From Pseudomonas sp. B21-040 (GTDB lineage: Bacteria > Pseudomonadota > Gammaproteobacteria > Pseudomonadales > Pseudomonadaceae): DNA of 64,000 nt. The translations under genes and the position numbers were made by a program. The notes beneath the pieces were generated by a model. The model was given only the letters and a program-made list of their open reading frames with translations. It was not told the origin of the DNA and did no database searches. Location of the stretch: contig NZ_CP087176.1 in the NCBI RefSeq assembly GCF_024748695.1, positions 2,659,501 to 2,723,500 of the forward strand, written 5' to 3'. This document shows, piece after piece, positions 7,160 through 48,343 of the stretch; position 1 is the first letter of the stretch; every line of letters begins with the position of its first letter.

Positions 7160-8545
7160 TCAGATGGCGTGGCCCAGCGTCGCATAGCATTCCTCAATCG
7201 AACGCCGTTGCGTTTCGGCATACAACCCCAACTCATCAATCGTCGCTCGCCCCAGCGCTTGTTCAAATGCTTGCTGATTCGAATGCACGCCATAGTGGGT
7301 TTGCGCTGCATCCCCGAGGTTCGACTGGAAAATCCCCGCTGCGCTCACGGGCAGAAAATCCTCATAGACCAAAGGTTCAGCCCGCAGGTAACCGCCGCTG
7401 AGCAACGCCTCCAGCGACAACGATTTCAGTTCTTCGGCCGCTTGGCCTTTTTCCGTCACAAAGTAGCGAAAGTACGCCAGTTCCTGTTGGCGCATGCCTT
7501 CGTACGTGTCAGGAAATTCGCCAAAGTGCTGCGTCATTAGCGCGTTGTAGCGTGCGGCATTGGCCTCATTGGGGAAGTCTTTCAATTCATCTCGTGCCGC
7601 GTTGAGCAACCGGTCATACAGCGCCCGGCCTTTTGGCGTCAGCGCGGCACCCCGTTGTTCGATTTCACCGAAGCGGGCGCTGTGGCTGCCTTGGGTGGCG
7701 GTTTGATCGGTAAAGGCAACCGGTTCGTCCAGCGCCTTGAAACTGGTCTGGCGCAACAGAATCGGGCACTGGCGGCGAGGCGGGCCTTCGATCACTGCTT
7801 TGGGGGTGATGCCGTGGACCGGCATTTGCGCCTGGACGATGTCGATGTCCAGCGTGCGTGGCGTCAGGTGGTTGATGTGCGGGCCCTTGAAGGCCACGAC
7901 GTCGGCGATCAGGCGGTGCTGGGCGCTGAGTTTTTGGTACTGCTCGGCGGTGACGGTCGCGCTGTGATGCCAGCGGAAGGTTTCCAGCGCCTGCTCGACG
8001 AAGTCCTGGGCTTCTTGCTCGGTGAGGCCGCCTGCGGTTTCAGCGCGCTCGATCAAGGTCAGCGCTGCCGGGGTAAAGATCTGGCGCTTGTCCAGCACCG
8101 ACTGGGCGAAGGCGCGCAGTTCCAGGTCTTCGATCAGTTCAAGACGCAGCAACGAGGTGAACACGCGGAACGGACTGACTTGCAACGCTGCTTCGTGCAC
8201 GGCGCGGAATGCGGTGGAATGCACTGGCACGCCCGCCGGGGTCAGGTCGTAATAGCCCACCGGTTGCATGCCCATGACCTTAAACAAATGGGCGAGGGTG
8301 GTCAGTTCGGTGGCGGTACCGACGCGGATTGCACCGTGGCGTTCCAGGTCCAGGCGCTCGATTTCGCCGGTGCTGATCAACTGGCGGGCGATCTGCGGGT
8401 CGCTGTCCAGCACGTACTGATTGGTCTGTTCCACCAGTTCCATCAGCGCGCCGTACAGCGGCACTTCCTCGCGGTACATGTCGGACATCGCTTTGGAGAA
8501 GCGTTGACGGATCAGGTCAGGGCTGACGAAGTGTGCTTGGCTCAT
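7160..8545 (-). CDS. hglS: 2-oxoadipate dioxygenase/decarboxylase (DUF1338, HglS)
   Basis: A 461-residue DUF1338 protein. HglS is known in P. putida to convert 2-oxoadipate to D-2-hydroxyglutarate in lysine catabolism, using Fe(II) in a VOC-like fold. The ligands reported for that enzyme are at the same positions here: His70 and Arg74 (ERHGAIRVG), His226 (GPHINHLTP) and Glu294 (ARFGEIEQ). The match of residue numbers is my own count from the translation. ATG 8545 has AGGA upstream. It is monocistronic, flanked by REP repeats, with no other lysine-degradation gene nearby. Confidence 0.92.
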   Translation of the reverse strand: MSQAHFVSPDLIRQRFSKAMSDMYREEVPLYGALMELVEQTNQYVLDSDPQIARQLISTGEIERLDLERHGAIRVGTATELTTLAHLFKVMGMQPVGYYDLTPAGVPVHSTAFRAVHEAALQVSPFRVFTSLLRLELIEDLELRAFAQSVLDKRQIFTPAALTLIERAETAGGLTEQEAQDFVEQALETFRWHHSATVTAEQYQKLSAQHRLIADVVAFKGPHINHLTPRTLDIDIVQAQMPVHGITPKAVIEGPPRRQCPILLRQTSFKALDEPVAFTDQTATQGSHSARFGEIEQRGAALTPKGRALYDRLLNAARDELKDFPNEANAARYNALMTQHFGEFPDTYEGMRQQELAYFRYFVTEKGQAAEELKSLSLEALLSGGYLRAEPLVYEDFLPVSAAGIFQSNLGDAAQTHYGVHSNQQAFEQALGRATIDELGLYAETQRRSIEECYATLGHAI

Positions 8546-11444: not shown

Positions 11445-12515
11445 ATGGAAAAAGCGGGAGGAAAAGGACTTTCATTGGCCAGGAGGCTTTATACATCGCG
11501 TACCCTGGGTTTGGCCCTGGGATTGTTGTGCGTGAGCGCGGCGATGTATCCCCTCGACCCGGCGCCGTGGGTGTGGGGTTTGATGGTGTTCAACGGGGTG
11601 TTCTGGCCGCACGTTGCCTATCAGTGGGCGCGGCGGGCCAAGGTTCCGTTTCACGCCGAACACCGCAACATCCTGGTCGACGCCTTTCTCGGTGGTTTCT
11701 GGGTGGCGGCCATGCAATTCAATCCGCTGCCCAGTGTTGCAACGCTGTCGATGATGGCGATGAACAATGTCGCCATCGGTGGCTTGCGTTTTCTGCTGGT
11801 GGGCACCGTCGCGCAGATTCTCGGGATAGGCATTGGATGGCTGCTGTTTACGCCCGCGTTCATCCCGACAACCAGTCCATTGCAGATGTTTGCCTGCATG
11901 CCGCTGCTGATCCTGTACCCCTTGGCGTTGGGCTGGATCTGCTTTCGCCAGGCCACCACCCTGGGCCGGCAAAAGCGCGAACTGCTGGCCCTGAGCCGCA
12001 CCGACAGCCTGACCGGCCTGCTGAACCATGGCGCCTGGAAGGATCAACTGGAAATTGAATTCCAGCGTTGCCAACGCCAGCAGCAGGGCGGGGCGATTGC
12101 GCTGATCGACATTGACCATTTCAAGACCATCAATGACACCTACGGCCACGTCGCCGGGGACATTGTGTTGCGTCAGCTGAGCAAAATGCTCAAGCAGAAC
12201 CTGCGCGTTACCGATGTGGCGGGCCGCTACGGCGGGGACGAGTTCTGCGTGCTACTGCCGGATTTGCCCCTGGACAGCGCCGCCGCGGCCATGGATGCCT
12301 TGCGTGATCGCTTTGCCACATTGGGCTACGAGCAAAGTCCTGCGTTGAAAGTCAGCCTGAGCATCGGCCTGGCAGCCTTCAACCCGGCACACGCCGATGC
12401 CACGTTGTGGCTCAACGACGCCGATCAGGCGCTGTACGAAGCCAAGACCACTGGCCGTAATCGGGTGATTTGCGCCGACGGCAAGCTGCATCGGGCGTTG
12501 TTTGATTCGGTGTGA
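11445..12515 (+). CDS. MASE2-GGDEF diguanylate cyclase
   Basis: A 356-residue membrane protein. Residues 15-170 hold about five hydrophobic segments with the MASE2 pattern (FNGVFWPHVAYQWARR, HRNILVDAFLGGFW). A GGDEF domain follows from about 183. The active motif GGDEF is at 263-267 and the inhibitory I-site RVTD at 254-257, exactly five residues upstream. It should therefore make c-di-GMP and be product-inhibited. It has the same architecture as AdrA/DgcC of enterobacteria, which drives cellulose synthesis; no cellulose genes are in the window. It is monocistronic. Confidence 0.92.
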   Translation: MEKAGGKGLSLARRLYTSRTLGLALGLLCVSAAMYPLDPAPWVWGLMVFNGVFWPHVAYQWARRAKVPFHAEHRNILVDAFLGGFWVAAMQFNPLPSVATLSMMAMNNVAIGGLRFLLVGTVAQILGIGIGWLLFTPAFIPTTSPLQMFACMPLLILYPLALGWICFRQATTLGRQKRELLALSRTDSLTGLLNHGAWKDQLEIEFQRCQRQQQGGAIALIDIDHFKTINDTYGHVAGDIVLRQLSKMLKQNLRVTDVAGRYGGDEFCVLLPDLPLDSAAAAMDALRDRFATLGYEQSPALKVSLSIGLAAFNPAHADATLWLNDADQALYEAKTTGRNRVICADGKLHRALFDSV

Positions 12516-20966: not shown

Positions 20967-21608
20967 TCAGCGAGTGGACGCAGCCGCCCACCACGCATCC
21001 AGCGTCGCCTGCAGCCAGTCATAAACGGCGGCGTAGGCGGCGCTGTCCGGTTCAGCCCGAGGCAATGGTGATTCCTCGGCAAAGTGTTCATTCAGTATCG
21101 CCACCGATTCGGCATTCCACTCCGGATGGAACTGCAGTCCCACCCGCGTTGGCCCCACGCGATACATCTGCTGTTCGCATTGATCGCTGCTGGCCAGCAA
21201 TTGCGCCTTTGGCGGCAGGCCGATCGCGTCTTCGTGCCACTCCAGCACGTTCAGCCTTTGCCCATCGATGAATGTCACCGACGTCCAGCCGGTTTCCGTG
21301 CGCGCCATCCGCCGCACCGTTCCGCCCAGGCTCAACGCCAGCAATTGCGCGCCCAGGCAAATCGCGAACACCGCGACGCCTTTATCCAGACCGCCCGCCA
21401 GCCACTGTCGCTCGGCCTCAAGCCATGTCGGTCCGGCATTGGATTCATATGGCCCGCCCAACACAATCACCGGTGCTGCGCTCACGGGCGGCAATTGGCC
21501 GAGATCGGCACGAAACACCTTCAGCGTCAGCCCTCGGGACGAGGCCCAGTCAGCAATGGCACCAGGGCCTTCGGCGGGGTGGTGCTGGATCAGATTCAAG
21601 GTAGGCAT
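20967..21608 (-). CDS. Class I glutamine amidotransferase domain protein
   Basis: A 213-residue stand-alone GATase1 protein. The nucleophile is Cys84 in FAICLGAQ and the other triad members are His161 and Glu163 in QFHPEW. GGPYES near 51-56 forms the oxyanion region. It should release ammonia from glutamine or hydrolyse a gamma-glutamyl bond. No synthetase partner is adjacent. I chose ATG 21608; GTG 21611 directly precedes it. It is divergent from the binding-protein gene and convergent with the rhodanese. Confidence 0.85.
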   Translation of the reverse strand: MPTLNLIQHHPAEGPGAIADWASSRGLTLKVFRADLGQLPPVSAAPVIVLGGPYESNAGPTWLEAERQWLAGGLDKGVAVFAICLGAQLLALSLGGTVRRMARTETGWTSVTFIDGQRLNVLEWHEDAIGLPPKAQLLASSDQCEQQMYRVGPTRVGLQFHPEWNAESVAILNEHFAEESPLPRAEPDSAAYAAVYDWLQATLDAWWAAASTR

Positions 21609-38186: not shown

Positions 38187-38604
38187 CACGTGTGCTCCTT
38201 CAGCAGGATCACGGTCCGGAGGCCTGTTTTTCGAGGCATTTGCCCCTGGACAGTGGTCGTTGGAATGAACAGGACGCCAAGCGCGTCCTGGGTGCATTAA
38301 GTTTAGTCCGGGCCTCGAGCGTCGTGGTCTGCAGCGACGAAAGCCCCATTTCCCAGCCTGACACCGAACCCTTGTGGGAGCGGCGGTGCCTTGGGGGATT
38401 GGTGCTGTGTATCGCACTGTATCTAACCGCTGTCCCGATACATTCCACTTCATTCCCGACCATTGCCGAACACAGCCCGGATACAAACTTGCGATGAACT
38501 GTGAAGACCGTCCAGCGCCTGAAACCCGGATCTGCCTGGGCACTTTTCATGGTCGTCGCAACAGGCGGCCGTCTTCGCTTCTGACTCCGTTATGGGAACC
38601 CCCA
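38187..38604 (+). promoter_or_regulatory. Promoter region of the acetamidase-like gene with GTATC/GATAC element (copy A)
   Basis: A 418-base gap. GTATC at 38409 and 38419, GATAC at 38437 and 38480, with GAACACAGCCC just before the last and CGATGAACTGTGA 12 bases after its start. The GATAC pair, the CACAGCCC and the AACTGTGA blocks recur with the same spacing in front of the DUF692 gene. Long frames read through the region but have no supported starts. Confidence 0.6.
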
Positions 38605-39927
38605 ATGACAACGCTCCTGTCTGAATCCAAGCCTGTCGACCGCTTGCGCGTCGACCATTACACCCAAGGCATCATCGGCCCAAGCCAGCCCATGCTCGGG
38701 CCGCTGGCCGACGGCGGTACGCTGATCACCGGCACCCCGCCGGGCTGCTGGGGGCCGATGATTACGCCGGCCTTCGAGGGGGGCCACGAAGTGACGCAAC
38801 CGGTGGCCATCGCTGGCGCGGAAGTCGGCGATGCGGTGGCCATCAAGATCAAAAGCATGCGCGTGACGTCGCTGGCGACGTCGTCCGGGGTCATGAGTTT
38901 TGTCGAGGGGCGCTACAACGGCGATCCGTTCGTCTCCAAATTCTGCTCCAGGTGCGGCACCGATCACCCGGCCAGCCACGTCGAAGGCATCGGTGAAGAC
39001 TCGATTCGTTGCAACAACTGCGGCGCCGAAGTCAGCGCGTTTCGTTTCAGCCACGGTTACGTGATCGTGTTTGATGCGCAAAATCAGGTCAGCCTGACCG
39101 TCAATCAGGACGTTGCCAATCGACTGGCCGGCAACGCCTCCGAGATGTCGGCACTGCCGGAATTCGCCGCCCAGCACTCGATCCTGTCGCTGGCCCGCGC
39201 CGACATCCCCGGCGTCGCCGCGCACATGCGCCCGTTCCTCGGCAATATTGGCACCACGCCGTCCCGTGACTTGCCGGACTCGCACAACTGCGCCGATTTC
39301 GGCCAGTACCTGATCAACGCGCCACACCGTTTCGGCATGACCCGCGAAGAACTGCACGCGGCGAAGACCGACGGCCACATGGACACCAATTCGATCCGCG
39401 AAGGCTGCGTGCTGATCTGTCCGGTGAAAGTGCCGGGCGCCGGCGTGTACATGGGCGACATGCATGCCCAGCAGGGCAACGGCGAGATCGCCGGGCATGC
39501 CACCGATTGCTCCGGGGAAACCGAAGTGCAGGTGGAAGTGATCAAGCACCTGACGCTGGAAGGGCCGATTCTCCTGCAAAACCTTGACGACCTGCCGCCC
39601 ATGGCGCGCCCGATGACAGCCGAACAGCGGCAGAAAGTCCGCGAACTGGGCGAACGCTGGGGGCAGCACGAGATCGAACAGAGTGGCCCGATCACGTTCA
39701 TCGGCAGCGGCGAGAACCTCAACGTCGCGGTCGAAAACGGTCTGAAGCGCGCCGCTTCGGTCACCGGCCTGCCGTATGACGAAGTGCTTAACCGCGCGAC
39801 CATTACCGGCTCGATCGACATTAGCCGCTTGCCCGGCACCGTGCGCGTGACCTTCCTGTGCCCGATGACCGTGCTGGATCGCATCGGCATCGGCCACTTG
39901 GTGCGTGAAAAATACGACCTGGCATAA
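38605..39927 (+). CDS. Acetamidase/formamidase family protein with CxxC pairs
   Basis: A 440-residue protein: GTLITGTPPGCWGPMITPAFEGG at the start, DSHNCADFGQ, GAGVYMGDMHAQQGNGEIAGHATDCSGE in the centre, all FmdA/AmdA-like. It would hydrolyse a short amide. An insert at 114-139 holds two CxxC pairs (FCSRC and CNNC), like a small zinc ribbon, which the basic family does not need. ATG 38605 with GGAA before it. It is preceded by the same promoter element as the DUF692 gene downstream. Substrate unknown. Confidence 0.8.
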   Translation: MTTLLSESKPVDRLRVDHYTQGIIGPSQPMLGPLADGGTLITGTPPGCWGPMITPAFEGGHEVTQPVAIAGAEVGDAVAIKIKSMRVTSLATSSGVMSFVEGRYNGDPFVSKFCSRCGTDHPASHVEGIGEDSIRCNNCGAEVSAFRFSHGYVIVFDAQNQVSLTVNQDVANRLAGNASEMSALPEFAAQHSILSLARADIPGVAAHMRPFLGNIGTTPSRDLPDSHNCADFGQYLINAPHRFGMTREELHAAKTDGHMDTNSIREGCVLICPVKVPGAGVYMGDMHAQQGNGEIAGHATDCSGETEVQVEVIKHLTLEGPILLQNLDDLPPMARPMTAEQRQKVRELGERWGQHEIEQSGPITFIGSGENLNVAVENGLKRAASVTGLPYDEVLNRATITGSIDISRLPGTVRVTFLCPMTVLDRIGIGHLVREKYDLA

Positions 39928-39936
39928 CGCCCAACA

Positions 39937-39968
39937 ACGGGTCTGTACCCAAGTGTGTACAGACCCGT
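39937..39968 (+). terminator. Perfect 12-bp hairpin after the acetamidase-like gene
   Basis: ACGGGTCTGTAC and GTACAGACCCGT pair fully around an 8-base loop, 10 bases past the stop. There is no T run after it, so it may be a 3' end stabiliser rather than a classical terminator. Confidence 0.5.
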
Positions 39969-39972
39969 CGCT

Positions 39973-40043
39973 GATACATCCCACCCGATTTTCTGCCGCA
40001 ACCGAACACAGCCCCGATACAGCGCTTCGATTAACTGTGATTC
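39973..40043 (+). promoter_or_regulatory. GATAC element upstream of the DUF692 gene (copy B)
   Basis: GATAC at 39973 and 40016 (43 bases apart, as in copy A), GAACACAGCCC before the second and CGATTAACTGTGA 12 bases after its start. The upstream GTATC pair of copy A is not kept; a hairpin occupies that place. Confidence 0.6.
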
Positions 40044-40071
40044 CGTTTCGGCAATCATTGAGATCGACACC

Positions 40072-40911
40072 ATGCAGACCTCATCCACATCAACCAGGGC
40101 CACCGTCGGGCTCGGCCTGCGTCGCGGCCTGATGAAAGACCTTCAAGCCGCCCGTACCGGTGATTTCGACTTCCTGGAAGTCGCGCCGGAAAACTGGATT
40201 GGCATCGGCGGTGCCCATGGCCATGCATTTCGCACCCTGGCCGAGCGATTTCCGTTGTCTTGTCACGGCTTGTCCCTGTCATTGGGTGGCCCGGCGCCAC
40301 TGGATGTCGGGTTCCTGCAGGAAGTGCGGGTGTTCCTCGATCAATACAACGTGCCGCTGTACAGCGAACACCTGAGCTATTGCAGCGATGACGGTCACCT
40401 TTACGACTTGCTGCCGCTGCCCTTTACCGAAGAAGCCGTGCATCACGTGGCGGCGCGGATTCGCCAGGCTCAGGACATTCTTGGCCGGCGCCTGGCGGTG
40501 GAAAACGTTTCCTACTACGCCGCGCCACAGCAGGACATGGACGAAGTGGCATTCACCAACGCGGTGTTGCGCGAGGCCGATTGCGACCTGCTGCTGGACG
40601 TCAACAACGTGTACGTCAACTCGATCAATCACGGATTTGATCCGCAGTTGTTTCTGGCCGGCATCGATTCAGGCCGGGTGGTGGCCATGCACGTGGCCGG
40701 GCACTTCGATGAGTCCGACACTTTGAAAATCGACACCCACGGAGCCTCGGTGAAACCGGCGGTCTGGTCGTTGCTGGCGCAGGCCTATGGCCGATTCGGC
40801 GCGCAACCGACACTGCTGGAGCGGGATTTCAACTTCCCGGCATTCTCTGAGTTGGTCGCGGAGTTGCAGAGCATTCGCCGATTGCAAACCGAGGGGATTC
40901 ACCATGGATAA
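40072..40911 (+). CDS. DUF692 multinuclear non-heme iron oxygenase (MNIO/BufB-like)
   Basis: A 279-residue TIM-barrel. Likely metal ligands: His65 (SCHGLS), Glu99-His100 (YSEHLSYC), Glu144-Asn145 (VENVSYY), Asp176 and Asn178/179 (LDVNNVYVN), His207 and His211 (HVAGH), Glu250 and Asp252 (LERDFNFP). MNIOs modify cysteines of small peptides, in bufferin loci with a DUF2063 partner. ATG 40072; its stop overlaps the DUF2063 start by 8 bases. No DUF2282 precursor is adjacent. Confidence 0.9.
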
Positions 40912-41659
40912 GCCGAGCCTGTTCGAACAACAAACCCACCTGGGCCGCTACTTGCGCAATCCTGATCACTGCGCACCACCCGGCGAAATGAATGCCGCAC
41001 GAGCCCAGGTGTATCGCGACCTGATTTTCGCCAACCTGTCGACGTTGCTCAGCGGGACATTTCCAGTGCTGATCAAGATTCTTGGTGATGAGCAGTGGCG
41101 CGCACTGGTACGGATCTTCCTGCGGGACTACCGCGCGCGTACGCCGAAATTCGGCGAGATCGCCCAGGAGTTTGTCGAGTTCATTGCGGCTCAACCGCCA
41201 GCATTGAACGAGGGCGCATGGCCGCCGTTCATGGTCGAACTGGCGCATTACGAGTGGGTCGAGATGGCATTGCAGCAGTCTGATGCCGAGCCCTTGCCGG
41301 CAAGCGATGCCGGGCAGTTGCAGGATCGACCGTTGCAGGTCTCGGCGCTGGCCTGGCCGCTGGCGTATGCCTGGCCGGTGCAGTGGGTGGGGCCGGACTA
41401 CCAGCCAGAAACGCCACCGGCTCAGCCGACGTTGCTGCTGGTGCGCCGGGCCGAGGACTGGAGCGTGAAGTTTTCGGAGCTGAGCCCGTTGGCGTGGCGG
41501 TTGTTGCAGCGGATCGAGCAGTTTCCTGAACTGGAGGGGCGTGCTCAGTTGGAAGGGCTGGCGCTGGAGGCCGGAGCAACCGGGTCGGCGGAGTTTATGG
41601 CCAGTGGTGCAGCGTTGTTGCGCCAGATGCACGGCGAAGGCGTTTTGGGACTGGCATGA
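40904..41659 (+). CDS. DUF2063 putative DNA-binding/partner protein (BufC-like)
   Basis: A 251-residue protein with the DUF2063 N-terminal domain (about 1-115): [25 protein letters not shown] and [31 protein letters not shown] winged-helix-like C-terminal part follows. In bufferin operons the partner binds the precursor for the MNIO. ATG 40904 is inside the DUF692 3' end, so the two are coupled. A longer frame from 40787 is a read-through and is rejected. Confidence 0.87.
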
Positions 41660-41766
41660 TCGTTCCCACGCTCTGCGTGGGAAAGTCTCACCGGACGCTC
41701 CGCGTCGGCTTCAGGGACGCGGAGCGTCCAGGGCTGCATTCCCACGCGGAGCGTGGGAACGATCAT
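41657..41766. repeat. REPIN-type inverted pair, family 3
   Basis: ATGATCGTTCCCACGCTCTG at left and GGAGCGTGGGAACGATCAT at right, with GGACGCTCCGCG/CGCGGAGCGTCC inside. It separates convergent genes. Confidence 0.85.
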
Positions 41767-41778
41767 CGGTGGTGCGGG

Positions 41779-42723
41779 TTACGCGGAGAAAAAATACCGC
41801 GTCAGGTGAAAGAAGATCGGCGCCGCAAAGCAGATCGAATCCATCCGGTCCAGCATGCCGCCATGTCCTTTGATCATGGTCCCCCAGTCTTTTGCACTGA
41901 GGCTGCGTTTGATCGCCGACATGACCAGCCCACCCAGAAACCCCATCACCACAATCACCAACGACATCAGCAGCGACTGCCAGAAACTGAAAGGCGTCAT
42001 CCAGAACATGCAGCCACCGATCAGCGTTGCCGATAAGCCGCCACCCACCAGTCCTTCCACGGTTTTCGATGGACTCACCAGCGGCGCGACCTTGTGTTTG
42101 CCAAAGAGCTTGCCGAACACGTACTGCAACACGTCACTCAACTGAACGACAAACACGAGATAGAACAGCAGCAATGCGTTCTGTCCTTTGAAGCCTTCCA
42201 GATCCAGCAGCAACAGGGCCGGCGCGTGGCTGATGCAGTAGATGCAAATCATCACCCCCCACTGGATCTTGGCGGCACGCTCCAGAAAGCTGTCGGTGTC
42301 CTGACTCAGCACTGCAATCGCCGGCAGCAGCAGGAAGGCGTACACCGGAATCAGCAGTGTGAACAGCGAATACCAGTGCGTACCGATCAGCACGTATTGC
42401 AGCGGGATCAAAATGAAAAACGCTGAAAACAGTGCGTTATGGTCGCCGGGGCGTGTCGGCGTCAGGGTAATGAACTCCCTGAGCGCAAACAGTGAGATGA
42501 AGCCGAACAGGATGACCGTCGCATTCCCGCCCAGCAGGTAGGAGACGAAGAATATGATCACCATCCCCCACCAGGCATTCACTCGCTGATTGAGGTTTTC
42601 GATGGTCGAGATCGAGCCCTCGGTTTTCGCCCGCTTGGCCAGCACGTGGCCGATGATCGAAGCCACCGCCAGCAAGCAGGCGATGGCGCCAAAGAACCAC
42701 AAGAATTTTTGTTCAAGCGTCAT
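41779..42723 (-). CDS. Phosphatidate cytidylyltransferase (CdsA/YnbB-like)
   Basis: A 314-residue inner-membrane protein with about eight hydrophobic helices. The C-terminal CdsA signature is present as VSPSKTVEGLVGGG and KRSLSAKDWGTMIKGHGGMLDRMDS. It makes CDP-diacylglycerol from phosphatidate and CTP. Its start overlaps the acyltransferase stop by four bases. It is the last gene of a three-gene set equal in content to E. coli ynbABC, an accessory phospholipid pathway next to the housekeeping cdsA. Confidence 0.88.
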   Translation of the reverse strand: MTLEQKFLWFFGAIACLLAVASIIGHVLAKRAKTEGSISTIENLNQRVNAWWGMVIIFFVSYLLGGNATVILFGFISLFALREFITLTPTRPGDHNALFSAFFILIPLQYVLIGTHWYSLFTLLIPVYAFLLLPAIAVLSQDTDSFLERAAKIQWGVMICIYCISHAPALLLLDLEGFKGQNALLLFYLVFVVQLSDVLQYVFGKLFGKHKVAPLVSPSKTVEGLVGGGLSATLIGGCMFWMTPFSFWQSLLMSLVIVVMGFLGGLVMSAIKRSLSAKDWGTMIKGHGGMLDRMDSICFAAPIFFHLTRYFFSA

Positions 42724-43319
42724 GCCGACAACCTCACGATGGCGTCACGCGCCCGTTGCAGAAACACCTGTTTTTCCTCATCGGCAACCCGTTGCATCGG
42801 GTCGCCGATACGGATCGTGCAGATGATGGGCAACGGCACGTGTTTGCCTTTGGGCATGGAGCGGTGCAGGTTTTCCAGGTAGATGGGCACCAGATCAACC
42901 TCGGGGAACGCCTCGGCGAGCCGGTACAGGCCGGATTTGAACTCTCCCGGTAATGCCTGGCTGGAACGCGTGCCTTCCGGAAAGATGATGATCGAATGTC
43001 CGGACCGCACCACATCGAAAATAGGCTCAAGCACGTTGGTGCCGGGTGTCGGGTTGCGCTCAATCAACACGGCATTCAAGCCTTTCTGCGAGATGTAGCG
43101 CAGGAAACGGTTCTTGCCCCAGTAGTCGGCGGCGGCCACCGGTTTCACATTGACCCGGGCTTCAGGGGGCAGGGCGGCAATAATTGCCAGCGTGTCCATG
43201 TGGCTGGTGTGATTGGCAAAATAGATACGCTGGCGGGTCAGGTCCGGCGGGCTTTCCCAGCGGGCCGTAACACCGATCAGGAAACGCAGTACGGAAATCA
43301 GCGCATTACTGATCCACAT
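42720..43319 (-). CDS. 1-acyl-glycerol-3-phosphate acyltransferase (PlsC-like)
   Basis: A 199-residue PlsC-family protein: HX4D motif in NHTSHMD, FPEGTRSS as the phosphate-binding motif, and an N-terminal hydrophobic helix. It makes phosphatidate or acylates a related lysolipid. Overlaps both neighbours (14 bases with the upstream gene, 4 with the downstream). It provides substrate for the CdsA-like enzyme. Confidence 0.88.
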   Translation of the reverse strand: MWISNALISVLRFLIGVTARWESPPDLTRQRIYFANHTSHMDTLAIIAALPPEARVNVKPVAAADYWGKNRFLRYISQKGLNAVLIERNPTPGTNVLEPIFDVVRSGHSIIIFPEGTRSSQALPGEFKSGLYRLAEAFPEVDLVPIYLENLHRSMPKGKHVPLPIICTIRIGDPMQRVADEEKQVFLQRARDAIVRLSA

Positions 43320-43938
43320 GGAGATTCCCCTTTAGCTGACGCGAAATGGCCAAGGTTCGCGTGACGCAGGTTGCGGCGGATCCGACAGCAATGATCAGCA
43401 GCGCGATCAACAGCACGTAGTGAGTGCCATACACCGTTGTTTCGACTGCATTGAGCAACAGCCCGGCGGTCATCACCGCCATTCGATGCTGCTTGGCCAT
43501 GGGGCCCATGAACGTCTGCTTGAGGCCCAGCGAACCGCCAAAGACGCGAACATAAGCCGTCAGCGCCGCGGCCAACGCCGCGAACCATCCGAGGTCGGCG
43601 TGCCCGATGGCATACCCGAGCCCGATGATCAGCAGGCTGTCGGCAATACGGTCGGGGAATTCGTTGTAGAGGCTGCCGATGTCGGACTGCTTGCCACCTT
43701 CGATGGCCACCATGCCGTCGAACAGATTGCACAGCAGGCGCAGTTGAATGCCGACGGCGCAGAGGAGTGAGCCAATGAGGCCGTTATCAATATTTAGCGC
43801 CAGCGCCCCGGCGAGTGCGAAGGCGATGCTGGCGACGGAAATCTGATTGGGGGAAATGTCGCGTTTCACCAGCCGGTCGGTGATACGTTTCGCCCAACCC
43901 GCCGAGCGCGTCTTGATGGGCCTTCTGTTGTCATCCAT
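43306..43938 (-). CDS. CDP-alcohol phosphatidyltransferase family protein (YnbA-like)
   Basis: A 210-residue membrane enzyme with about five helices. The catalytic motif is present as LFDGMVAIEGGKQSDIGSLYNEFPDR, with the acidic residues kept but the usual AR after DG replaced by VA. It moves a phosphatidyl group from CDP-diacylglycerol to an alcohol; the acceptor is unknown. It follows the sensor kinase gene by 106 bases on the same strand, so the phospholipid genes may be read from the two-component promoter. Confidence 0.85.
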   Translation of the reverse strand: MDDNRRPIKTRSAGWAKRITDRLVKRDISPNQISVASIAFALAGALALNIDNGLIGSLLCAVGIQLRLLCNLFDGMVAIEGGKQSDIGSLYNEFPDRIADSLLIIGLGYAIGHADLGWFAALAAALTAYVRVFGGSLGLKQTFMGPMAKQHRMAVMTAGLLLNAVETTVYGTHYVLLIALLIIAVGSAATCVTRTLAISRQLKGNLHVDQ

Positions 43939-44044
43939 TTGCCAATGTCCATATTAGTGATGAGGCGTTGCCAGTTGCGCCGCAGGGACGAGCCGACCGG
44001 CAGCGTCCGACAATATAAAGGCTTTCCCTGGCCCTTGCGTTTAT

Positions 44045-45355
44045 TTACTGACTGACAGGTCGAACCGGCAATTTCAGCTCCGCACACAACCCACCCCCCT
44101 CGCGATTGCTCAGCGTCAACGAGCCACCGATGGCGATCGCCAATTGCTGCGCAATCGCCAGGCCCAGCCCGGTCCCGCCGGTGCTGCGGTTACGCGAGTT
44201 TTCGACGCGGTAGAACGGTTCCATCACGTGCGCCAGTTCTTCCTCGGAGATGCCCGGCCCGCGATCCATGACTTTCACCGACAGGTTGCCGTTTTTGCTT
44301 TCAACCCAGAGTTCGGCGGCTCCGGCGAACTTCAGCGCGTTGTCGGTGAGGTTCACCAACACTCGACGTAACGCATGGGGACGGGTGTCGATCACCGTGG
44401 CACTTTTGCCTTCCAGCGATACGTCTTTGCCCATGTCCTGATAGTCGAACACCAGGCTGTCGAGGAACGAGTCCAGGTCGGTGCGCCGGCTTTCTTCGGT
44501 AGCACCATGGACGCTGCGGGCATACGCCACGCCTTCGCGTACCAGATGCTCCATCTCGCCGAGGTCGTTCCACAGTTTGTCTTTCTCGCTGGAGTCGTCC
44601 ATGAATTCGGCGCGCAGTTTCATGCGGGTGATCGGGGTTTGCAGGTCGTGGGAAATGGCCGCCAGCAGTTGCATGCGTTCTTTGAGGTACGCGGCGATGC
44701 GCGCCTGCATGGCATTGAACGCCTTCGCGGCGTGGGCAACTTCGGTCGGGCCTTTTTCGTCCAGGTGCACGGGGTGGGCGTTCGGGTCCAGGGTGTCCAC
44801 GGCTTGCGCGAGGCGCGTGAGGGGGCGGATGGCGATTCTGACGGCCAGCCAGGTGCAGGCAATCATCAACGCCAATTGGCCGAGCAGGACGAACGGCAGC
44901 CACGGCGACAGCGGCACCATCGATGGGCGCACGTCGATGGTAACCGGGCTGCCATCGGCCAGTTTCAGATGAACCTGGAAGTGTTTGATCGGGCCGGGAA
45001 TGTCGGTCACGGTCATTGGGTAGTCCTTGCCGATGGCGTCCTTGATCGAGGTCACCGCAATCGGCGTGTCACTCATGGCCGTGCCCGGCGAACCTTCGTC
45101 CAGCAAATAGCGGTAATTGCGCCGCTCCAGTTGTTGCAACCAGCTTGCCCGTTCCGCGGCGGGCAAGCGGTCGAGGATGGCGATGGACGTCGAGACATCG
45201 GTCTCCAGGTTGCCGAGCATGGTGTTTTTCGCGGTTTCGTAACGCTCGTAGTACTGCGCGCCGAAGGACAGCGCTTGCGCCAGGATCAAGCCAATCAGGA
45301 AGATCAACGACAGGCGTGAGGCGAGGGTGCGCGGCCAACGAATCGTGACGTTCAT
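44045..45355 (-). CDS. Sensor histidine kinase
   Basis: A 436-residue EnvZ-type kinase. Two membrane helices (about 15-34 and 153-172) flank a periplasmic domain of about 120 residues. HAMP at 172-225. Phosphoacceptor His236 in AISHDLQTPITR; N box LTDNALKF; G boxes DRGPGI and GTGLGLAIA. No recognisable ligand pocket in the sensor domain. Start overlaps the response regulator stop by four bases. It is the partner of the gene at 45352. Confidence 0.93.
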   Translation of the reverse strand: MNVTIRWPRTLASRLSLIFLIGLILAQALSFGAQYYERYETAKNTMLGNLETDVSTSIAILDRLPAAERASWLQQLERRNYRYLLDEGSPGTAMSDTPIAVTSIKDAIGKDYPMTVTDIPGPIKHFQVHLKLADGSPVTIDVRPSMVPLSPWLPFVLLGQLALMIACTWLAVRIAIRPLTRLAQAVDTLDPNAHPVHLDEKGPTEVAHAAKAFNAMQARIAAYLKERMQLLAAISHDLQTPITRMKLRAEFMDDSSEKDKLWNDLGEMEHLVREGVAYARSVHGATEESRRTDLDSFLDSLVFDYQDMGKDVSLEGKSATVIDTRPHALRRVLVNLTDNALKFAGAAELWVESKNGNLSVKVMDRGPGISEEELAHVMEPFYRVENSRNRSTGGTGLGLAIAQQLAIAIGGSLTLSNREGGGLCAELKLPVRPVSQ

Positions 45356-46092
45356 GAGGGCGCCCCGAGTACTTCCACCGCCAACGAAAACACATAGCCC
45401 TCGCTGCGCACGGTTTTGATGTAGGCCGGTTCGCGGGCATCGTCCAGCAAGCGCTGGCGCAAGCGGCTGACCAGCAAGTCGATGGAGCGGTCAAACAGAT
45501 CGGCGTCGCGGCCCTGGGTCAGGTTCAGCAGTTGATCGCGATTGAGCACCCGCTGCGGGTGATCGAGAAACACTCGCAGCAGGCGATATTCGGCACCGCT
45601 CAGCGCCACCATGGTGCCGTCTTCGTCCAGCAGGTGCCGGGCCGAGGTGTCCAGGCGCCAACGACCGAACGCCAGCAGGCGACCGCTCTCGGTCACCACC
45701 AGGTTCGGCGGCAGCATGCGCGTGCGGCGCAGCACGGCGTTGATGCGGGCGAGCAACTCGCGGGCGGCGAAGGGTTTTACCAGGTAATCGTCGGCGCCCA
45801 TTTCCAGGCCGATGATGCGGTCGGTTTCGTCGTTGCGCGCGGTGAGCATCAACACCGGCGTGGCCTTGTGTTTGCCGGCGCGCAATTCACGGCAGAGCAT
45901 CAGGCCGTCGTCGCCGGGCATCATAATGTCGAGCACGATCAGGTCCACCGGCGTGGTTTCGAGGAAGGTGCGCATTTGGCGCCCGTCGGCGACCACGGTG
46001 GTGCGCAGGCCGTTCTTCTTCAGGTAGTTGCCTACCAGCTCCCGGATCTCGCGGTCATCGTCGACGATGAGAATGTGATCGACGTGTTCCAT
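45352..46092 (-). CDS. OmpR-family response regulator
   Basis: A 246-residue regulator: receiver domain with acidic DDD at 11-13, phosphoacceptor Asp55 (VLDIMMPG) and Lys106 (LVKPF); C-terminal winged helix (FDRSIDLLVSRLRQRL). First gene of an operon with its kinase and probably the three lipid genes. The intergenic region in front of it holds paired GTATC sites 10 bases apart, the spacing expected for OmpR-type tandem dimers, so autoregulation is likely. Confidence 0.93.
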   Translation of the reverse strand: MEHVDHILIVDDDREIRELVGNYLKKNGLRTTVVADGRQMRTFLETTPVDLIVLDIMMPGDDGLMLCRELRAGKHKATPVLMLTARNDETDRIIGLEMGADDYLVKPFAARELLARINAVLRRTRMLPPNLVVTESGRLLAFGRWRLDTSARHLLDEDGTMVALSGAEYRLLRVFLDHPQRVLNRDQLLNLTQGRDADLFDRSIDLLVSRLRQRLLDDAREPAYIKTVRSEGYVFSLAVEVLGAPS

Positions 46093-46399
46093 GGGGCCTT
46101 GCCTCTGTCAGTAGGGGAATGCTGCCCAGTCTATCGAGCCTTGGCCCGCTCGCCTTCCGCGCTTTGTATTGCAGTGTATCTGGCTTGGCGGCGGATACAC
46201 GCAGACGCAAAAACACGGTTTTTCAGGGGTTTTGTATCGCTGTGTATCAGAGGGCGGCTTTGATACGTACCGATTTATACGCGTCTGTTCTCGACACAGA
46301 CCAGATACCTCACGGGCTTCTAATAGGTTCCAACGAGGCAAACCACACCGCCTCGGCTCAATTGAACGACCTACCCATTGAAGCCTTGAGGAAACCGCC
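46093..46399. promoter_or_regulatory. Divergent promoter with two GTATC/GATAC modules (copy C)
   Basis: Module one: GTATT 46166, GTATC 46176, GATAC 46194. Module two: GTATC 46234, GTATC 46244, GATAC 46262 and GATAC 46304, the last preceded by GACACAGACC. The spacings 10 and 18 are the same in both modules and in copy A at 38409. A 307-base gap without a credible gene. Confidence 0.65.
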
Positions 46400-46663
46400 A
46401 TGAACACTAAAGCCATCTACGCCGCTTGCCTGTTTGCTGCCCTGAACATCTGCACCTTGTCGGCCCGTGCCGAAGCAGACGTTACCGCCAAAACCTACAC
46501 CTACGGCACTCACCTGGACATCAGAAAGGTCGTGTCGCTGAAACAAGACGCGACCCCGGTCTGCGGCGTGGTGGATGCGCAACTGACTTACCTGGATTCG
46601 CAGAACAAAACCCAGGTTCTTGACTACCGAAAAGTGGCTGACAACTGCAACTCGGACAACTGA
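46400..46663 (+). CDS. Small periplasmic DUF2790 protein
   Basis: An 87-residue protein with a signal peptide (cleaved near SARA-EA, residue 24). The mature domain of about 63 residues contains YTYGTHLDIRKVVSLKQD and PVCGVVDAQLTYLDS, the DUF2790 pattern. Two cysteines (55 and 83) could form a disulfide. Function of the family is unknown; several copies per Pseudomonas genome are usual. It lies directly behind the copy C element, divergent from the response regulator. Confidence 0.85.
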   Translation: MNTKAIYAACLFAALNICTLSARAEADVTAKTYTYGTHLDIRKVVSLKQDATPVCGVVDAQLTYLDSQNKTQVLDYRKVADNCNSDN

Positions 46664-46711: not shown

Positions 46712-46966
46712 ATGAACAACGTAAGCCGCTACCTGACCGCCATTGCCTTCTCCGTCGCCGGTGCCGCCGCCCATGCCAATGCCGCTGTTGAACAGAGCAG
46801 TTGTGGCAGCGCCACCTGCTTCCAGCTGACGCCAGTGGCGCACAAGGATTCCACCGCATTTCTGGCCGAGGACGGTTATAGCCGGACGCCGCAGGGGCAG
46901 ATGGTGGCAGAGAACGGCGCAAGCCGGACTCCCCAGGGGCAGCAACTGGATAGCCAGACTGCCTGA
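46712..46966 (+). CDS. Small exported protein with CGSATC motif and SRTPQGQ repeats
   Basis: An 84-residue protein. Signal peptide to about residue 24 (GAAAHANA). Cys31 and Cys36 form a C-x4-C motif. The C-terminal half has two copies of SRTPQGQ at 58-64 and 72-78, 14 residues apart. ATG 46712 has GGAAG upstream; the in-frame 46664 start would mask the signal. I know no family. It follows the DUF2790 gene by 48 bases and is probably co-transcribed. Confidence 0.75.
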   Translation: MNNVSRYLTAIAFSVAGAAAHANAAVEQSSCGSATCFQLTPVAHKDSTAFLAEDGYSRTPQGQMVAENGASRTPQGQQLDSQTA

Positions 46967-47000: not shown

Positions 47001-47094
47001 CTGTGGGAGCGAGCTTGCTCGCGATGGCTGAGTGTCAGTCGACATCCATGTTGGGTGTACTGACCTCATCGCGAGCAAGCTCGCTCCCACAGGG
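47001..47094. repeat. REPIN-type inverted pair, family 2
   Basis: CTGTGGGAGCGAGCTTGCTC at left and its inverse ending GCTCCCACAGG at right, nearly identical to the 22711 element. Confidence 0.9.
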
Positions 47095-47134
47095 ATTTTC
47101 AGTGTGCCGCGCTCTTTATTTCAAAGGTGATCCC

Positions 47135-48343
47135 ATGTTCCTCATCGCTTTCCTGGGCGGCATATTGACCGTCCTCAGTCCTTGCATCCTGCCGGTCGTA
47201 CCGTTCCTGTTCGCCGGGGTCAAACGTACACGTTCCTCCATTCTGCTGACCCTCGGCGGCATGGTCCTGACCTTCGCCCTGATTTCCAGCCTGGCCGTGG
47301 TCAGCAGCGAGTGGGTGGTGCAGGCCAACAACACCGGTCGCCATGTGGCCCTGATCGTGATGGGGCTGTTTGCCTTGTCGTTGATCTCTGCCCGGGTCGG
47401 AGACTGGCTGGCCCGTCCGTTTGTGGCGTTGGGCAACCGTCTGGATCCGGATTCGCGCAAAATCTCCGGCCCGTTGAGTTCGGTCATGATCGGTGTGGCC
47501 ACCGGCCTGCTGTGGGCACCCTGCGCCGGGCCGATCCTCGGGGTCATCCTCACCGGCGCCATGCTGCAAGGCGCCAATGCGCAAACCAGCCTGTTGCTGG
47601 TGGCATACGGCCTGGGCAGTGCGTTGTCGCTGGGGGTATTGATTTTCGCCGGTCGCGGCCTGGTCAATCGCTTGAAAGCGTCGATCCCGGTCACTGGATG
47701 GCTGCGTCGTGGTGCCGGTGTCGCGGTGCTGGCTGCCGCCGCGGTGATTTCCACCGGCGCGGACAAAACCTTGCTGGCCAGTACATCGTCCGAAGGCGTC
47801 AGCAGCCTGGAGAAAGGTGTGCTGGAAAACGTGCCGAAGGTCGTCGATTACTTTGTCAGCAAAGTCAAAGCCGACCCGATGGACAACGCCCAAGGCGCGA
47901 TGCCCTCACTGAACGGCGCCGTCGAATGGATCAACTCACCGGCCCTGACCCGCGAATCGCTGAAAGGCAAAGTGGTACTGGTGGATTTCTGGACCTTCGA
48001 CTGCATCAACTGCCAGCACACGCTGCCGTATGTGAAGGACTGGGCAAAGAAATACGAGAAGGAAGGCCTGGTAGTGATTGGCGTGCACACCCCGGAATAC
48101 GGTTTCGAGCGCATCATCGACAACGTCAAGGATCAGGTGAAAAAACTCGGCATCACCTACCCGGTGGCGATCGACAACAACTACACGATCTGGCGTGCAT
48201 TCGATAACCAATACTGGCCGGCGCATTACCTGATCGACGCCAAGGGTCAGGTGCGTTACACCCACTTCGGTGAAGGCAGCTACGAGACGCAGGAGAAGAT
48301 GATTCAACAACTGCTGGAAGAAGCCAAAGCGCCTGCGGCGTAA
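47135..48343 (+). CDS. dipZ: DipZ-type membrane thiol-disulfide protein (CcdA plus thioredoxin domain)
   Basis: A 402-residue protein. Residues 1-205 form a CcdA/DsbD-like six-helix domain with Cys17 (LSPCILP) and Cys130 (WAPCAGP). The C-terminal part (about 255-402) is a TlpA-like thioredoxin domain with Cys290 and Cys293 (FDCINC). It carries electrons from the cytoplasm to periplasmic thiols. ATG 47135 after AAAGGTG; the longer frame starts inside the REP element. Neighbouring Cys-pair proteins could be its targets (inference). Confidence 0.9.
   Translation: MFLIAFLGGILTVLSPCILPVVPFLFAGVKRTRSSILLTLGGMVLTFALISSLAVVSSEWVVQANNTGRHVALIVMGLFALSLISARVGDWLARPFVALGNRLDPDSRKISGPLSSVMIGVATGLLWAPCAGPILGVILTGAMLQGANAQTSLLLVAYGLGSALSLGVLIFAGRGLVNRLKASIPVTGWLRRGAGVAVLAAAAVISTGADKTLLASTSSEGVSSLEKGVLENVPKVVDYFVSKVKADPMDNAQGAMPSLNGAVEWINSPALTRESLKGKVVLVDFWTFDCINCQHTLPYVKDWAKKYEKEGLVVIGVHTPEYGFERIIDNVKDQVKKLGITYPVAIDNNYTIWRAFDNQYWPAHYLIDAKGQVRYTHFGEGSYETQEKMIQQLLEEAKAPAA

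Follow-up and report, generated by a model that had tools for sequence, protein, structure and literature searches.

A three-site GATAC element at BfmR-type regulator genes and at separated HvfA and HvfB/HvfC loci in Pseudomonas

Here we analyse a stretch of 64,000 nt from Pseudomonas sp. B21-040 (NZ_CP087176.1, positions 2,659,501-2,723,500; hereafter the window), in which a promoter element built from GTATC/GATAC half-sites is found at three loci, i.e. before an acetamidase gene (copy A), before an hvfB-hvfC (DUF692/DUF2063) pair (copy B) and next to the gene of an OmpR-type response regulator (copy C). The element is real, recurs well beyond chance and is bigger than first described, and it is very probably the operator-promoter of a regulon governed by that regulator, a BfmR-type protein. 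Moreover, we lean towards the view that the shared three-site operator, not gene linkage, unites a pathway for a ribosomally synthesized and post-translationally modified peptide (RiPP), with HvfB/HvfC of the window maturing an EF-hand HvfA precursor encoded 3 Mb away. The BfmR regulon would then constitute a module for envelope metal/redox defence, comprising a peptide metallophore, DipZ, DUF2790, cupin, secreted hydrolases and, in some species, OsmC-family proteins, which the acetamidase would have joined when its gene was inserted between the operator and hvfB.

Geometry and spread of the element

The complete element comprises a distal tandem, TGTATC-N4-TGTATC, and, about 72 bp downstream of it, GACACA-N5-GATAC-N10-TtAAAT, a promoter site that overlaps the -35 region. 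It is complete in copies A and C, and in copy B the promoter half is retained along with a degenerate distal part (Table 1). The first-pass annotation had described half-sites at fixed steps in all three copies, and this is exactly what A (GTATC at 38409 and 38419, 10 apart; GATAC at 38437, 18 on, and at 38480, 43 on) and C (GTATC at 46234 and 46244; GATAC at 46262, 18 on, and at 46304, 42 on) contain; in B the GTATC pair is missing, and just the GATAC sites at 39973 and 40016, 43 apart, are present. Two further details of that description are borne out by the sequence, namely ACACAGNCC ahead of the final GATAC of all three copies, and CGATKAACTGTGA common to A and B, 12 bases past the start of this GATAC. 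A further tandem at 46165-46180, part of copy C1, had been absent from it. The unit common to A, C and the further matches is TGTATC-N4-TGTATC, 45-46 bases, and then ACACA-N5-GATAC.

Table 1. Features of the window, with positions counted from its first nucleotide
Feature	Position	Strand	Basis
Copy A, distal tandem TGTATC-N4-TGTATC	38408..38423	+	reads GATACA-N4-GATACA on the - strand; composite match G000:C1:2697908-2697984
Copy A, middle GATAC	38437..38441	+	13 bases past second GTATC
Copy A, promoter half GAACACAGCCCGGATAC over the -35 region	38468..38500	+	geometry as in logo of 152 composites
Acetamidase/formamidase-family gene, amdA-like	38605..39927	+	Pfam PF03069, 148.7 bits vs cut-off 27
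Hairpin after acetamidase gene, enclosing degenerate copy B tandem	39939..39966	+	fold -22.2 kcal/mol, z -4.54
Copy B, middle GATAC	39973..39977	+	sequence
Copy B, promoter half GAACACAGCCCCGATAC, -10-like TTAACT at 40031-40036	40004..40036	+	
hvfB-like MNIO (DUF692) RiPP maturase gene	40072..40911	+	NCBIfam NF003818, 421 bits vs cut-off 360
hvfC-like partner gene (DUF2063)	40904..41659	+	NCBIfam NF050145, 262.5 bits vs cut-off 142
Three lipid-type genes (CTP_transf_1, acyltransferase, CDP-alcohol-phosphatidyltransferase-like)	41779..43938	-	accessory
Sensor kinase gene, EnvZ-like, BfmS-type by position	44045..45355	-	Pfam HATPase_c, HAMP
Response regulator gene, OmpR family, BfmR-type	45352..46092	-	89% identical to P0148 over 244 residues
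Copy C1, regulator-proximal operator GTATC-N13-GATACACTGCAATACA	46165..46198	-	kept before most regulator orthologues listed
Copy C2, distal tandem of DUF2790 promoter	46233..46248	+	sequence, composite scan
Copy C, middle GATAC	46262..46266	+	sequence, genome scan
Copy C3, promoter half GACACAGACCAGATAC, -10-like TCTAAT at 46319-46324	46293..46324	+	logo geometry
DUF2790 small secreted protein gene	46400..46663	+	Pfam PF10976, 59.5 bits vs cut-off 27
Gene of small secreted protein, two cysteines, SRTPQGQ repeats	46712..46966	+	start chosen by eye
DipZ-like fusion gene, DsbD-type membrane part and redoxin	47003..48343	+	Pfam Redoxin, AhpC-TSA; DsbD_2 above cut-off

GTATC-N5-GTATC is present twice in the window, once each at A and C, and 100 shuffles of the window gave no match. 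The 6.75-Mb genome (labelled G000) holds GTATC-N13-GATAC at three places, all within A and C, and ACACAGNNCNGATAC with zero mismatches three times, i.e. at A, B and C. The box GATACAnnGC occurs six times in the window (1.03 expected; no shuffle of 100 gave six), five times in A, B and C, with minus-strand boxes at 38404 and 38414 in copy A and at 46171 and 46239 before the regulator gene; the sixth box lies at 11541-11550, outside the three copies. Taken alone, ACACA-N5-GATAC with up to one mismatch is weaker evidence (three in the window vs 1.74 expected), and one-mismatch scans for half-sites gave mostly noise (62 matches vs 28 for the reversed pattern; 18 vs 16). Lone sites at 249137, 3587430, 1666450 and 4243412 were set aside, being outside any composite.

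The strict composite, searched on the opposite strand as GTATCNNNNNTGTN{46,49}GANACNNNNNRANACA, has five sites in the genome and none for the reversed control. These are copy A, copy C, the promoter of a second regulator gene (G000:C1:2826264), a site at a secreted cupin gene (3960096) and one at the gene of an HvfA precursor, a small secreted protein (5703688). Across 119 genomes of the genus, the composite with spacings of 46-49 occurs in 135 copies in 65 genomes (reversed pattern: 0), a count that must be discounted to some degree as the genomes are mutually related and thus non-independent. The poor conservation that had been named beforehand as a refutation was not observed. Spacings of 16-45 and 50-79 yielded two sites and one site, respectively (reversed 0 in both searches). 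The spacing is thus near-fixed, as four adjacent spacings hold 135 of 138 sites and 60 others only three; the sole site in the 50-79 range lies before the regulator gene of a genome (G051) first counted as regulator-only. The logo of 152 distinct composites reads GACACA-N5-GATAC-N10-TtAAAT-G, with T at +20 in 99% and A at +18 in 91%, and thus puts the last GATAC by the -35 region with the -10 element at a fixed distance. By eye, the promoter halves of A, B and C as well as those of the distant hvfA and cupin genes match this layout, e.g. copy A has a -10-like TGAACT at 38495-38500, 15 bases from the start of GATAC. Copies A and B might instead be recent duplicates of one promoter that resemble C by chance, and they do have CGATKAACTGTGA in common beyond the half-sites, but the same half-sites, spacing and -10 element are found again upstream of dissimilar genes in 65 genomes, which renders such a coincidence highly improbable.

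BfmR as the predicted regulator of the element

The assignment of the regulator to BfmR relies on the protein P0148, whose source name is "BfmR [Pseudomonas aeruginosa]"; searches of the PDB and NCBIfam gave the general OmpR family only. For the kinase the best NCBIfam match is EnvZ, with 185.5 bits under a cut-off of 415. Apart from a paralogue with 89% identity, the next-closest regulator of the genome is 55% identical. At a threshold of at least 84% identity, 82 orthologues of the regulator are found in 66 of the 119 genomes. Element and regulator are both present in 63 genomes, the element alone in two, the regulator alone in three and neither in 51, and 61 of the 135 composites are located at the regulator gene itself. 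For this reason, and because the genomes are related, the Fisher value of the co-occurrence should be read with reserve. The genomes with the motif only look decayed: G011 has a disrupted HvfA frame, with HvfB not found, and in G022 the operator is followed by no more than the apparent start of a hydrolase gene. The proposal that a single regulon is governed by the OmpR-type regulator encoded next to copy C is therefore supported for the acetamidase, the DUF692/DUF2063 pair and the secreted proteins, given the 63 genomes with both element and regulator; the lipid genes, also counted in by the first-pass annotation, lack an operator of their own.

According to excerpts of the published work, three footprints in the promoter of P. 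aeruginosa bfmR each contain GATACAnnGC (PMC4148453), and the top peaks of BfmR in chromatin immunoprecipitation sequencing (ChIP-seq) are bfmR, pa4103 and efhP-pa4106-pa4105, with efhP being the most activated gene (PMC8025907). The BfmRS system of P. aeruginosa (PA4101-PA4102) has in common with that of the window the 89% identical regulator, the EnvZ-like kinase behind it and GATACAnnGC before its own gene. As judged from this identity to the named BfmR and from the published box, regulator and box are already known. In the passages available, BfmRS controls an EF-hand HvfA/HvfB/HvfC set (PA4107-PA4106-PA4105), whereas in B21-040 the operators precede acetamidase-hvfB and an HvfA gene 3 Mb from hvfB-hvfC, and the acetamidase, DUF2790-DipZ, cupin and second regulator genes bear the operator, too. 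The fixed three-site geometry is a feature of B21-040 that these passages do not state. Thus, what is known from P. aeruginosa is the regulator, its box and the control of efhP-hvfBC, and what is new is the fixed geometry, the wider predicted regulon and an operator that links HvfB/HvfC of the window with a distant HvfA precursor; no published statement of the geometry or of a link across separated loci was found in the literature on BfmR with these pathways and motifs, of which few subscription journals were covered.

From the sites, their geometry, their co-occurrence with the regulator and the family assignments we infer the following scheme. Phosphorylated BfmR would bind as dimers to direct repeats of GATACA that are 10-11 bp apart. 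One dimer may occupy GACACA-N5-GATAC over the -35 region, with the -10 element beginning 15 bp past the start of GATAC, and may make up for the lack of a good -35 hexamer by recruiting RNA polymerase (class II activation). Another dimer, bound to the distal tandem ~72 bp or about seven helical turns away, might raise occupancy or close a loop. BfmR would thereby control its own operon, the genes for DUF2790, the secreted protein and DipZ, the acetamidase gene and hvfB-hvfC. Its targets outside the window would be the genes of an orphan EF-hand HvfA precursor and of the secreted cupin as well as the second bfmR copy.

Several observations weigh against this scheme, in addition to the relatedness of the genomes mentioned above. 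The motif published from BfmR ChIP-seq is TACAA-N3-GATACA (PMC8025907), and another one, from work based on high-throughput systematic evolution of ligands by exponential enrichment (HT-SELEX), is CGTAC(N0,5)CGTAC (PMC10924945), as given in the portions of these papers that were available. Two genomes, G009 and G086, contain the regulator and no strict composite, and at copy B the place where the GTATC pair is expected (39944-39959) is occupied by a degenerate TGTACCCAAGTGTGTA that lies within a stable hairpin. Finally, the paralogue is 86% identical to the named BfmR and could bind the same sites. This second regulator copy (G000:C1:2825472-2826209; locus L034, G000:C1:2818000-2834000, regulator at 7467-8210) is 89% identical to the regulator of the window and has the same composite before its gene, so one may ask whether it, rather than the regulator of the window, chiefly governs the sites. 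We regard this as very unlikely, as the second copy has no kinase alongside in G000, where an SBP_bac_3 gene follows, and many genomes with the motif carry a single copy of the regulator. The second bfmR copy is possibly an orphan regulator served by the kinase of the window. Its counterpart in G049 (L035) retains a kinase, 77% identical to that of the window.

RhpR of P. syringae, which has been described to bind the inverted repeat GTATC-N6-GATAC, is another conceivable owner of the sites, be it via this repeat or via a spacing variant. RhpRS, as described in excerpts, has the GTATC/GATAC half-sites, self-regulation and a homologous kinase in common with the system of the window, where the same half-sites are inverted with N13, and RhpR may simply be the orthologue of BfmR, since RhpS has been termed the BfmS homologue in P. 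syringae (likewise from an excerpt, PMC4148453). However, the published repeat with N6 is not present at A, B or C; the window contains no exact match and two with one mismatch (0.42 expected) at 21095 and 25612, outside the three copies. Moreover, the conserved order, i.e. direct repeats plus an inverted half-site after N12-N13, is unlike the RhpR repeat, and ownership by RhpR is thus quite unlikely.

Outside the genus, a tandem-like GATAC box was recognized by eye in only about three (L238, L246, L252) of 16 loci with the regulator. In the comparison of named genomes 80 loci were listed, with neither P. aeruginosa nor P. syringae among them. In 12 of these (Rhizobiales, Lelliottia; L230, L232-L237, L239, L240, L248, L249, L268) the regulator gene directly follows the gene of a secreted alpha/beta hydrolase, and the same hydrolase bears the composite in Pseudomonas.

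With the BfmR operator as outlined, a two-component system linked to biofilm and virulence would be tied to a peptide-metallophore pathway across the genus. The signal of BfmS is debated, osmotic stress having been proposed (PMC10924945, available in part), and becomes testable via the hvfA promoter.

HvfA apart from HvfB/HvfC

As in HvfABC/oxazolin-captophorin pathways, the window encodes HvfB and HvfC above curated cut-offs (the start of hvfC was chosen by eye inside the open reading frame (ORF) 40787-41659), and the precursor resembles the EfhP precursors in that it contains EGKCGEGKCG and EF hands; in contrast to these pathways, the precursor is encoded away from the maturase and tied to it by the common operator. 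Among ORFs of at least 30 amino acids at 39900-44100 there is no HvfA precursor with EGKCG beside hvfB. The precursor 3 Mb away under the same operator exceeds the curated cut-off of NF050137 (24.8 vs 19.5) and falls below that of the HvfA equivalog model NF050188 (23.5 vs 95). EfhP has been published as a Buf_EGKCG|EF-hand fusion (PMC12452194), and EGKCG peptides of other species were described to contain 5-thiooxazoles and to bind copper (PMC13097082), both according to excerpts. Since HvfB/HvfC and their presumed substrate have the operator in common, they may belong to one circuit despite the gap of 3 Mb.

HvfB of this clade (identity of at least 64%) is present in 45 of the 119 genomes, all 45 with the regulator, and EF-hand HvfA-like matches (E <=1e-12) are likewise present in 45, of which 44 contain HvfB. 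HvfA and HvfB are adjacent in 15 genomes and were called split in 29. As three of the latter (G033, G034, G098) have HvfA within about 2 kb of HvfB, 26 genomes remain in which the genes are apart on one contig or on different contigs, 25 of them with the composite at HvfA. Where both genes lie on one contig, at least about 200 kb apart, the composite is found at HvfA in 13 of 13 genomes, and where they lie on different contigs, so that the separation is less certain, in 12 of 13 (not in G025). Against the scheme counts the adjacent arrangement, in which the strict composite is found at HvfA in 0 of the 15 genomes. Five adjacent-type loci were read (G077 being outside the 15): three contain a tandem GTATC pair and a variant promoter half, and two no such box at all.

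DUF2282 was rejected as precursor for the maturase of the window, as the sole DUF2282 gene of the genome adjoins another MNIO gene. The genome encodes two more MNIO maturases (G000:C1:6682611-6683393 and 1322686-1323474), one of them beside the DUF2282 precursor. In general, shared operators may provide a way to match orphan RiPP precursors with orphan maturases.

Further candidate regulon members and probable gene insertions

The 74 composites away from the regulator were assigned to first genes by tblastn and by eye, with a Pfam check on representatives only (DUF2282, DoxX behind the short HvfA, two hydrolases, OsmC) and the other members assigned by likeness. They precede genes for EF-hand HvfA (27), a secreted alpha/beta hydrolase (12), other hydrolases (2), HvfB-HvfC directly (9), DUF2790 and/or DipZ (8), acetamidase followed by HvfB (7), cupin (2), a DUF2282 (BufA1-like) precursor (2), the OsmC family (2), a short HvfA (1), a repeat-rich secreted protein (1) and a relic (1). 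According to this tally 46 of the 74 serve MNIO peptide pathways. All 27 HvfA frames under a composite contain EGKCG; two are disrupted (L161 in G046, L199 in G011), and the others read are intact. The HvfA precursor, the cupin and the second regulator are candidate regulon partners outside the window. The composite appears sufficiently specific to pick out the core targets of BfmR in any Pseudomonas whose genome has been sequenced.

All seven acetamidase-HvfB loci fetched, including that of the window, have the full composite before the acetamidase gene and a promoter half between this gene and HvfB, and at nine loci without acetamidase (five read) the full composite directly precedes HvfB. 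The simplest reading is that the acetamidase gene was inserted between operator and hvfB and that copy B would be a worn second copy, with its distal part in the hairpin. A role of this hairpin as terminator is only possible, as no T run follows it.

The lipid genes are not absent from relatives, as had been considered; they lie between kinase and hvfC in four (G005, G049, G088, G002) of ten intervals, which were picked partly for a larger regulator-hvfB distance suggestive of an insert. Behind the kinase they were found in none of the 16 loci L038-L053 and in none of the 80 named loci listed, and no composite precedes them. Judged by sequence comparison, they are a sub-clade insert. Being downstream of the kinase gene on the same strand, they may be co-transcribed with it, and their control would be at most by read-through, as they have no operator of their own and stand behind the kinase only in a sub-clade.

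The secreted protein encoded at 46712-46966 matched no Pfam or NCBIfam family. At L169 (G039:C13:118765-123840) a composite precedes the gene of a small secreted protein with AEGGSDRL repeats, also outside any Pfam family and, like the protein of the window, containing short repeats. At L210 (G059) and L219 (G048) two composites lie ~4 kb apart, one of them before an OsmC-family gene, a hint that one branch of the regulon may deal with oxidative stress.

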